Source: Cytophagales bacterium (lineage in GTDB: Bacteria > Bacteroidota > Bacteroidia > Cytophagales > Spirosomataceae). From it: a stretch of DNA of 64,000 nt. The stretch covers positions 1 through 64,000 of the forward strand of contig JAAFKE010000013.1 in assembly GCA_013298215.1 (NCBI GenBank), read 5' to 3'. Shown in pieces: positions 58,827-63,209 of the stretch (the first letter of the stretch is position 1; every line of letters begins with the position of its first letter). The notes below the pieces were generated by a model. That model did no database searches. It saw nothing but the letters and a program-made list of their open reading frames with translations, and was not told where the DNA came from. The translations under genes were made by a program, and so were the position numbers.

Positions 58827-61800
58827 ATGAAACATTTTCTGCCATTTTTCTTTTTATTCTTCACTTTATTTACGGCAACAGCTCAGACCATTCCCGATTG
58901 GGAAAACCCCGAGGTGTTTGCCACCAACACCGAGCGACCACGGGCCAGCAGCGTGCCCTACACCACCGAAAAAGCCGCGCTGGGGTTCGATCCCAGCGCT
59001 TCGCCGTGGTACAAATCATTGAATGGCACCTGGAAGTTTAAGTGGGTGCAGCACCCGTCGAAAGTCCCCGCCAATTTTTTTGTGCCCGCCACATCTACCC
59101 AAAACTGGGACGACCTGCCCGTGCCGTCTAATTGGCAGGTGTTTGGCGCCCGCGAAGGCCGGGCCTACGACCGCCCTATTTTTACCAATATAAAACACCC
59201 TTTCAAGGCAAACCCGCCCAAAATAGAGGCCGACACCAACGCGGTGGGCTTGTACCGCACCACTTTTAGCGTACCCACCAACTGGCAAACAAACCAGGTT
59301 TTTTTGCACTTTGCGGGCGTGCAGTCGGCGTGCTACGTGTGGGTGAACGGCCAAAAAGTAGGCTACCACGAAGACGGTATGACCCCCGCCGAATTTGACG
59401 TGACCAAGTACCTCCAAAGTGGCAGCAACGACCTGGCCGTGGAGGTTATTAACTGGTCGGACGGTAGTTATCTGGAAGACCAAGACTACTGGCGCATTTC
59501 GGGTATATTCAGAGACGTTTTCCTGTATGCCACGCCCCCCGTTCACGTGCGAGATATGTACGTAATTACTGACTTAGACGACGACTACCGCGATGCCAAC
59601 CTGCGCGTTACTACCTTTGTAAAAAACTTTTTGAGCCAAGTTCAAGACCGTTTTCAGATTCAATACTCCCTTTTTGACCCCGCCGGCAAGGCGGTGTTTG
59701 CCAACGAGACCAAGAATATCCCGATGCTCGACCCCAAAGACGAAGCTTACCAAGGGTTCAATATAAAAGTAGAAAACCCCGCCAAATGGACTGCCGAAAC
59801 GCCCAACCTCTACACGCTGGTTGTGAAGACAATCAATGCCGATGGCGAAATTGTGGAGGTGACGAGCAGCAGAGTGGGCTTTCGGGAGGTGGAAATAAAA
59901 AATGGTTTGTTGCTCGTCAATGGCCGCCCCGTAACGTTCAAGGGGGTGAACCGCCACGAATTTGACCCCACCACAGGGCGGGTTATTAGCCGCGAGTCGA
60001 TGGTGAAAGATATTTTGTTGATGAAACAACACAACATCAACGCCGTCCGAACGTCGCACTACCCCAACAACCCGCTCTGGTACGACCTGTGCGACCAGTA
60101 CGGGTTGTACGTGATAGACGAAGCCAACATCGAAAGCCACGAAATGTTTCAGTTGAAGGGCATTAGCATGGCCGCACTGCCCGAGTGGAAAGGGGCGTTT
60201 TTGGCCCGTGGCAAAGCCTTGGTAGAGCGCGACAAAAACCACCCGTCGGTTGTGATCTGGTCGTTGGGCAACGAAACGGGCTTTGGGCAAAGTTTCGAGG
60301 ACATGGCCCAGATCATTAAACTGATCGACCCCACCCGCCCTATTCATTACGAAGGCCGCAACAATTACCAGTTCGATTTTAGCAAAGTAAACCAACCTCT
60401 TTCCAATTTCGACATCATCACAACCATGTATCCGTCGGTGGCGGGCATGGTGTCTCTCATGGAACGAGACCCCACCCGCCCCGTAATTATCTGCGAGTAC
60501 GCGCATTCGATGGGCAACAGCGTGGGCAATTTGAAAGACTATTGGGACGCAATAGACAAATACCCGCGCCTGCAAGGGGCTTTTATTTGGGACTGGGTAG
60601 ACCAGGGTTTGTTTCTTAAAGACCGCAACGGACGAACTTACATTGACCACGTGAACCACATAGACGGGGCAAACGCGGGCGACGGCCTGGTGAACCCCGA
60701 CCGAGTGCCGCAGCCCGAAATCAACGAGGTGAAACACGTTTATCAGTACGTAAAGTTTGCGCCCAAAGACTCTATATCTCCCCAGAGCCGAGTCGTTACG
60801 CTCCAAAACACCTACGACTTTATTAGCCTGAGAGGCTTTAAGTTGGTGTGGCAATTGTTGGAAAACGGGCGGGTTGTGCAACAGGGCGACGTAACAAACC
60901 TAAACGCCGACGCTGGCACAAACCAGAGCCTGACGATTCCGTACACCATTCAAACGCTGCGGCCTGGGGTAGAATATTGGCTCAACTTGAGTGTTCAGAC
61001 CAAAGAAAAAACACCCTGGGCCGATGCCGCCCACGAGGTAGCCTTTGAGCAGCTTCGAGTGGCAGTGCCCGCATCAGACAAACTCGTTCAAATGGCCACG
61101 GCCAGTAACCTTAAATACGGGTTAGACCGGGCGGGGTCGGGCGCGGTAAAAATACAGGCGGGCAGCTTGTTTAGTGTTTCTTTGGATCGAAAAATAGGCG
61201 GAATCACGTCCATCAATTACAAAGGCCAGGAACTATTGAGCCAGCCGCTGTTGCCCAATTTTATGCGCACCCCCACCGACAACGACGAGGGCAGTGCGCC
61301 CGCCAGTTTCGCCGCGCGGTGGCGAAAGGCTGGTTTAGACTCGCTCAAATACGCGGGCGGCAACGTCCAGCAACCCATAAACGTGAACGCCCAAACGATA
61401 AGGGTGGAGATGACGGGCGTTTGGAAGGCCAAAGCGGGGAGCATATCGGTAAAAACAGTCTACGATATTTTTGGCACGGGCGACATCCGGGTCAAAAATA
61501 CTTTTACCTTGAACGGAGCGTTCCCGCCGTTGGCCAAAGTGGGCGTGCAAACCCAACTGCCAGCCACATTTACCGAGTTTAGATGGTACGGGCGCGGGCC
61601 GTTTGAAAGCTACTGGGACCGAAAAACCGCCGCGCGCCTGGGCGAGTACACCAGCAAGGTGGCCGACCAGCACTTTGGGTACATTATGCCCCAAGAAAAC
61701 GGCAACAAAACCGACGTGCGCTGGGCGGCCGTGACCGATGCCAGCGGCAAGGGCTTGCTGGTGGTGGGCGCACCGCTGCTCAACGTGAGCGTGCGCGACT

Positions 61801-63209
61801 ACACCGATGCCGATCTGTTGGCCTCCAAAAAGACCCAAAACCTGCCCCGTGGCAACACCACCGTGCTGAACATTGACCAGCAACTGATGGGACTGGGCGG
61901 CGACGACAGCTGGACTCCGCGCACCCACCCCGAGTATTTGCTCACCGCCAAGGAATACAGTTATTCGTACCGCCTCAAACTCATAGATGGCGTAACCGAT
62001 CTGGACGCACTGGCCAACACCAACCTGCCCAGCGTTACGATGGAAGCCAGCAATCCAGCGTCGTTGTTGGGTGCGCCGAGCAACATTATTAAAACCAAAA
62101 TGGGCGCATCTACAACCACCGACAGCCCCAACGGCTTTACGGCCAGGGGCTGGAGCAACCAAAAAGCGGAGATTTGGTACGGACGGCAGAGCTGGCTGGT
62201 GGGCGCAAACTTCTGCCCCAGTTCGGCCATTAATCAGTTGGAAATGTGGCAGGCTGAGACTTTCGACCCCAAGACGATTGACCGCGAATTGGGATGGGCT
62301 AAGGCCATCGGCATGAACACCATGCGGGTTTATTTGCATTATTTGCCCTGGCAACAAGACGCGGCGGGCTTCAGAAAGCGCGTTGGCCAGTATTTGGCCA
62401 TTGCAGCCAAGCACCAAATAAAAACCATTTTTGTGCTCTTCGACGACTGCTGGAACCCCGAGCCTAAACTTGGCCCGCAGCCCGCGCCGCAACCAGGCAT
62501 ACACAACTCGGGTTGGGTGCAATGCCCAGGTTTCAAACAGGTGACAGATCAGGCGGTTTGGCCAACATTAGAAAGTTACGTGAAGGATATGGTCGGGACG
62601 TTTTCGACCGACCGACGCATTGTAATGTGGGATTTGTACAACGAGCCAGGCAACTCGGGGCAGGTCAATAAAACACTGCCGCTGTTAGAAAAAACCTTTG
62701 CGTGGGCGCGCGCCGCCGACCCCACCCAGCCGCTCACGTGCGGAGTTTGGAACTACAGCACCGAGTTTGAGAGCCTCAATAAGTTTTCGCTCGAAAACTC
62801 CGATGTCACTACTTTTCACCACTACGAAAACGCCGAATCTTTGGAGAGCCGCATTGTGGCGATCCGCGCCAAAACCGACGACCGCCCGCTGATCTGCACC
62901 GAATACATGGCCCGAACCAGCAACAGCCGCTTCCAAACGCACCTGCCGATATTGAAACGCGAGGACATTGGAGCCATAAATTGGGGCTTGGTGAGCGGCA
63001 AAACGAACACTATTTTTCCGTGGGAGTCTAAGCTCGGCGCACCCGAACCAGCGGTGTGGTTTCACGATATTTTTCGGGCCAACGGCAAACCATTCGACCC
63101 CGCTGAAACGGCACTTATCAAAAAAATGACCGCCATCCGAAAAGCCGCCCCCGCCCGCCGAAAACGCGGTGCGGGTCGAACCAAGGCAAAAAAACGGCGG
63201 AGGAGATAG
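58827..63209 (+). CDS. Secreted GH2 beta-galactosidase-type enzyme fused to a GH5-like glycosidase
   Basis: A 1460-residue exported enzyme. After the signal peptide (ends TATAQ, residue 20) comes a complete LacZ-type GH2 protein: sugar-binding and Ig-like domains, the TIM barrel with acid/base Glu483 ([11 protein letters not shown]) and nucleophile Glu557 ([11 protein letters not shown]), and beta-galactosidase small-chain-type C-terminal domains to about residue 1050. A linker follows, then a GH5-like barrel (about 1105-1440) with acid/base Glu1273 (LYNEPGN) and likely nucleophile Glu1359 (ICTEYMAR). It resembles stand-alone Bacteroidota proteins annotated as cellulase-family or xylanase-like. 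The last ~20 residues are almost all basic. Confidence 0.92.

Follow-up and report, generated by a model that had tools for sequence, protein, structure and literature searches.

A single reading frame in the window, by which we mean the whole 64,000-nucleotide stretch of Cytophagales bacterium (Spirosomataceae) DNA analysed here, joins what appears from its sequence to be a LacZ-type GH2 beta-galactosidase to a second predicted catalytic domain, a clan GH-A barrel. The barrel does not simply follow the beta-galactosidase but seems to have been placed ahead of that enzyme's own tail. Taken as a whole, our account is of a secreted, two-activity glycosidase in which a GH-A module was inserted between a LacZ linker and a LacZ tail, and we give this account a probability of roughly 0.6. 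The features on which it is built are collected in Table 1.

We propose that an ancestral Spirosomataceae LacZ-type beta-galactosidase already had a flexible linker followed, at its C-terminus, by a polybasic tail, and that a clan GH-A (GH5-like) module, possibly leaderless, entered between the two. A single signal peptide would then export both active sites. The GH2 half would take off terminal beta-galactose, and the barrel, as a retaining hydrolase, would probably cleave a beta-linkage of that same galactose-carrying glycan. The polybasic tail, to judge from its charge, would probably anchor the enzyme to anionic material, either a surface or a polymer.

Table 1. Features of the joined gene and its product, in window coordinates.
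Feature	Residues	Position	Strand	Basis or remark
Whole fusion ORF	1460 aa	58827-63209	+	ATG start; internal stops 0
Signal peptide, whole protein	1-20	58827..58886	+	By eye from translation
LacZ-type GH2 beta-galactosidase	26-1052	58902..61982	+	Pfam, NCBIfam NF052611, PDB 6sd0
Predicted GH2 acid/base (NETGFG)	Glu483	60273..60275	+	Motif position; aligned with WSLGNE motif of 6sd0
Predicted GH2 nucleophile (CEYAHS)	Glu557	60495..60497	+	Motif position; aligned with CEYAH motif of 6sd0
LacZ-lineage linker	1053-1106	61983..62144	+	Recognisable in LacZ of Runella and genus g25
Inserted clan GH-A (GH5-like) domain, edges approximate	1107-1437	62145..63137	+	PF00150; alignment; stand-alone homologues
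Predicted barrel acid/base (NEPGNS)	Glu1273	62643..62645	+	Motif position; invariant in 34-sequence alignment
Predicted barrel nucleophile (TEYMA)	Glu1359	62901..62903	+	Motif position; invariant in 34-sequence alignment
Polybasic C-terminal tail	1438-1460	63138..63206	+	Tail type of Runella/Dyadobacter LacZ

One open frame and two catalytic domains

A preliminary description of this DNA had proposed a single polypeptide with two glycosidase domains, and the unbroken frame, the Pfam and NCBIfam assignments and the positions of the motifs all bear this out. The whole-genome search returned an open frame of length 1461 without stops inside, and the four glutamates put forward as catalytic (Glu483, Glu557, Glu1273 and Glu1359) lie exactly where they had been placed. 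A stop between the halves and a non-catalytic family for the C-terminal part had been named as contrary results; the frame is continuous, and the C-terminal part matches PF00150 in Pfam. The junction is internal to a contig of 80,363 bases, and the assembly of the 3.55-Mb genome is rated 99.97% complete with 0.08% contamination. Third-position GC of the codons is 0.683 in the LacZ part and 0.672 in the barrel. Among the matches listed, the joined frame is found in one genome only, as would be expected if an assembly or sequencing artefact had united two separate genes. We nonetheless give such an artefact very little credence, as codon composition is alike in both parts, the join is internal to the contig, and features of LacZ lineage stand in frame on both sides of the insert, the linker before it and the tail type after it.

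The GH2 half is assigned by its sequence to the LacZ-type GH2 beta-galactosidases, and hydrolysis of beta-galactosides is predicted. Residues 63-1050 carry the Pfam domains PF02837, PF00703, PF02836, PF16353 and PF02929 in that order, the small-chain domain included, and residues 26-1052 match the equivalog-level NCBIfam model NF052611 (LacZ-type beta-galactosidase Bga2A) with 1075.3 bits against a cut-off of 999. The closest GH2 relative among the named genomes is the LacZ of Runella aurantiaca (65% identity). LacZ enzymes are commonly tetramers, and by analogy four copies of each active site of the fusion protein may be brought together in one assembly. The nearest solved structure for this half is the beta-galactosidase 6sd0 (E 2e-241). 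With the LacZ-type GH2 enzymes as a group (NF052611 Bga2A; PDB 6sd0/6s6z, 1dp0) the protein shares the five domains and both catalytic glutamates; it differs from them in its additional inserted catalytic domain, and also in its signal peptide and polybasic tail, both of which it has in common with the LacZ proteins of Runella and Dyadobacter.

The second domain is by its sequence matches a member of clan GH-A and closest to GH5, and we refrain from filing it in GH5 because its alignment to a GH5 structure is partial and the Pfam matches of its family are split. Specifically, the C-terminal part alone matches PF00150 (Cellulase) at E 1e-7, its 32.2 bits exceeding the cut-off of 23.5; Pfam does not report this match for the full chain. 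The C-terminal part also matches PF02836 (E 4e-7). Across an alignment of 34 barrels (that of the window plus 33 relatives sharing 51-63% identity with it; 382 columns), PF00150 is matched by 28, PF02836, the GH2 barrel model, by 16 and PF00331 by 4. The best solved structure for a profile of the 34 sequences was 1tvn (E 5e-5), with just positions 143-284 out of 333 aligned, and searches by sequence and by profile returned no close solved structure for the barrel. The label 'GH5-like' that the domain had been given is thus sound at the level of the clan, while membership of GH5 itself is left unproved by the partial 1tvn match and the split Pfam matches.

The conserved residues of GH5 enzymes are an Arg, an Asn-Glu pair, a His, a Tyr, a Glu and a Trp. 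All of these are invariant in the 34 barrels (R66, N171, E172, H230, Y232, E258 and W285 in alignment numbering), as matched by alignment column. The barrel has the clan GH-A signature residues in common with GH5 (PF00150) endoglucanases such as those of PDB 1tvn and 4m1r, and differs from them in being alignable only in part. One might still suppose that the domain is a non-catalytic relic now acting as a binding module, in keeping with the finding of no described activity for the barrel family and with a predicted barrel structure too poor for inspection (single-sequence model, mean pLDDT 40.9). The invariance of both catalytic positions and of the other clan GH-A signature residues, in the window barrel and in its 33 relatives, makes such a relic highly improbable.

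Distribution and relatives of the two halves

The claim that the two halves are normally separate genes holds for the family. The barrel occurs in 149 of 222 same-family genomes, while the GH2 search, with E 1e-100 as its threshold, matched 112 of the same 222; the window genome is included in both counts. Among the matches listed, seven genomes of Runella, a genus placed under Spirosomataceae, hold both genes, separately. The barrel family is common in Bacteroidota, and in the wider samples was found in 124 of 390 genomes at the level of the order, 25 of 395 at the class and 34 of 395 at the phylum; the family, order, class and phylum samples overlap, and the window genome is counted in each. 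No joined GH2-barrel frame other than the window's appears among the matches listed from any of these samples (family n=222). In the listed matches from the 222 family genomes, which leave out the weakest barrel matches, the other barrel frames reach at most 512 aa and the other GH2 frames 1237 aa. No second genome of genus g1, that of the window, is among the matches listed. A search for the same fusion in related genomes, as had been suggested, therefore recovered the separate halves but, among the matches listed, no second example, and it speaks against the insertion account that the joining is found in one genome only, with no relative to confirm it.

The only other long barrel frame among the matches listed is a 702-aa protein of genome G725 (L223:9015-11108) with a different N-terminal part, whose extra ~350 residues match no Pfam family at E 0.01 and by eye resemble a BNR-like protein whose gene lies close to barrel genes at locus L138. 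Candidate viral relatives of the barrel were also considered, and none of 24 pattern matches was a true relative.

In a maximum-likelihood tree of the barrels (66 rows), the window barrel clusters with those of genomes G221 and G138 (support 100/93), on an own branch of 0.33 against a median of 0.089. Neither of these two partners (L127 and L128) has a signal peptide recognisable by eye. The relative of highest identity, from G728 (L175; 63%), does have one by eye, and falls outside the group of the window, G221 and G138 at an unresolved fork of the tree. For the earlier argument that the missing signal peptide of the second half betrays a real fusion, the evidence is thus mixed: the G221 and G138 barrels seem leaderless too, but that of G728 does not, and the inserted module may or may not have been leaderless in origin.

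These seemingly leaderless partners also bear on whether the product stays joined, since cleavage of the linker after export, or an internal start for the barrel, would yield two enzymes from the one gene. Two in-frame ATGs do lie in the linker (62040 and 62100), and the tree partners of the barrel look leaderless as well. We regard a split product as quite unlikely, however, given that the frame across the junction is unbroken and that a barrel started internally would be without an export signal.

The linker, the polybasic tail and the case for insertion

The case for insertion of the barrel, as opposed to addition at the end, lies in what flanks it. After the last GH2 domain, the LacZ proteins of Runella and of genus g25 continue for ~70-80 residues, first as a linker that contains a LPEITAQSQAASELGAP-like stretch and finally as an end rich in K/R. 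When the window linker was compared with five of 11 aligned LacZ tails, local scores were 58-71, against maxima of 40-47 in 500 shuffles for each tail, so that no shuffle (0/500) reached the score for any of the five. As to the end itself, 12-14 K/R in the last 20 residues are found in all ten Runella LacZ proteins examined (from 13 Runella genomes with a GH2 match) and in the one from g25, and a polybasic end is present in all 11 Dyadobacter LacZ proteins examined (of 48 with a GH2 match). The LacZ proteins of g23 and g27 have 9 K/R each in the last 20, and the tail is absent from LacZ of the six Spirosoma genomes and one g5 genome examined (2-6 K/R). At named loci, the LacZ of Dyadobacter jejuensis, whose last residues are RGRRRR, has just 7 K/R. 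The number is 12 for an uncultured Dyadobacter and 1 and 4 for two Spirosoma loci, the counts there covering the short end past the match. The tail is thus a feature limited to part of the Spirosomataceae, a point against the insertion account. Dyadobacter LacZ ends (L229-L239) are long, with an acidic stretch followed by the K/R-rich end, and several contain repeated SKKK/SSSKKK units.

The window protein, with 12 K/R in its last 20 residues, is the only frame with at least 9 among 378 predicted by a simple gene caller in 464 kb of its own genome (the window plus 20 stretches). For a Runella genome, of which 400 kb was covered, the figure is 3 of 343 frames, and LacZ alone has more than 9. 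Stand-alone barrels, where examined, stop no more than 14 residues past the match; some of them have KK or KKLNKK as their last residues, but none carries such a tail. Because a LacZ-type linker precedes the barrel, a tail of the Runella/Dyadobacter type follows it and stand-alone barrels are tail-less, the arrangement is best read, by its sequence, as a barrel inserted between the LacZ linker and the polybasic tail, with the tail retained; this is the simplest account. The proposed homology of the tails would rest on composition and place, a K/R-rich tail being too simple to align. What had been called a 'real fusion' therefore stands as an in-frame union of two complete catalytic domains, while the end-to-end layout that the term implied gives way to a probable insertion, which better fits the linker and the tail.

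End-to-end fusion through loss of a stop is, in general, a common route, and a LacZ gene might have run on into a downstream GH5-like gene, with the tail evolving anew or arriving with the second gene. The poor alignability of the tail, where only K/R-rich matches are found at the end, leaves room for such an origin. We consider it unlikely on several counts: the Runella (10/10) and Dyadobacter (11/11) LacZ proteins examined already carry a tail of this kind, the stand-alone barrels examined have none to contribute, tails of this kind are rare in the window's own genome (1/378), and none of 80 named GH2 loci (flanks up to 6 kb) has a barrel match at E 1e-5.

The 1460 residues match nine families in Pfam at E up to 1, and no C-terminal sorting domain of type IX secretion (e.g. 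PF18962) is among them. A bolder reading, which we offer tentatively and think possible without favouring it, takes the tail for a hitherto undescribed signal by which exo-enzymes of the Spirosomataceae are retained on anionic cell-surface or matrix polymers. Its function would be so strong that the ~330-residue catalytic domain persisted solely on its upstream side, and cargo located ahead of the tail would be retained too.

Candidate substrates and relation to known enzymes

Gene neighbours were drawn for 18 stand-alone barrel loci of our own choosing, and 20 hand-picked neighbours from 15 of these loci were scanned with Pfam: seven are sulfatases, four GH127-type and four GH43, with one each that are glutaminase-A-like, carboxylesterase, CBM9-like plus BNR-like, Hcp-like and a secretion-tail domain. 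At 12 of the 18 loci, some of which come from closely related genomes, the gene immediately beside the barrel is of GH127, GH43 or sulfatase type. By analogy, these neighbourhoods may hint, if weakly, at glycans that contain arabinose or are sulfated; since both genes and loci were picked by eye, the pattern is to be taken as a lead and not as a statistic. The window's own genome, with one GH43 match and no GH127 match, counts against this lead. The earlier guess of galactomannan or xyloglucan as substrate finds no support in the analysis, the hand-picked neighbours of stand-alone relatives including GH127, GH43 and sulfatase genes. The barrels of G221 (L127) and G138 (L128) each adjoin a GH127 beta-L-arabinofuranosidase gene.

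Around the window gene itself, no polysaccharide-utilisation locus is recognisable, which counts against our account; judged by eye, the neighbours are argS and genes for an ABC-permease and for the cell wall, besides a decayed TonB receptor. A synteny comparison of seven neighbouring window genes with 22 loci, many of them short-flanked, gave only a weak OmpA-like match (L120/L121). The C-terminal piece of the TonB-dependent receptor (63286-63681 and about 63900-64000, both on the minus strand; PF00593, E 5e-7) is broken upstream, by eye, by an AT-rich stretch of ~200 bases with stops, and looks like a decayed gene. Elsewhere in the window, positions 42593-46570 on the minus strand encode a large protein (1325 aa) that combines an alpha-amylase domain with an Ig-like one.

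Multicatalytic glycosidases are well known, and the novelty here is a combination of known parts, not another kind of system. For example, in the available part of its description (PMC4892530), CbCel9B/Man5A of Caldicellulosiruptor bescii is a multicatalytic enzyme with a C-terminal GH5 domain and, like the window protein, two catalytic domains per chain. It has binding modules between its catalytic domains, where Pfam finds no binding module in the window protein, and the latter differs from it further in pairing a LacZ-type GH2 enzyme with a GH5-like barrel set ahead of the enzyme's own tail. The portion of a 2025 GH2-subfamily study that was accessible (PMC12243196) makes no mention of a GH5 fusion, and our literature search, within the accessible portions of the open papers, found neither a GH2-GH5 fusion of the window kind nor a polybasic LacZ tail.

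If the barrel did enter between linker and tail, the protein would illustrate clearly one way in which a glycosidase can come to have two activities, namely by entry of a catalytic module into a flexible tail. It also brings to attention a lineage-specific charged tail on secreted LacZ enzymes, whose role is simply testable, and it would offer an initial way into the activity of a clan GH-A family that is common in Bacteroidota and for which our searches returned no close solved structure.
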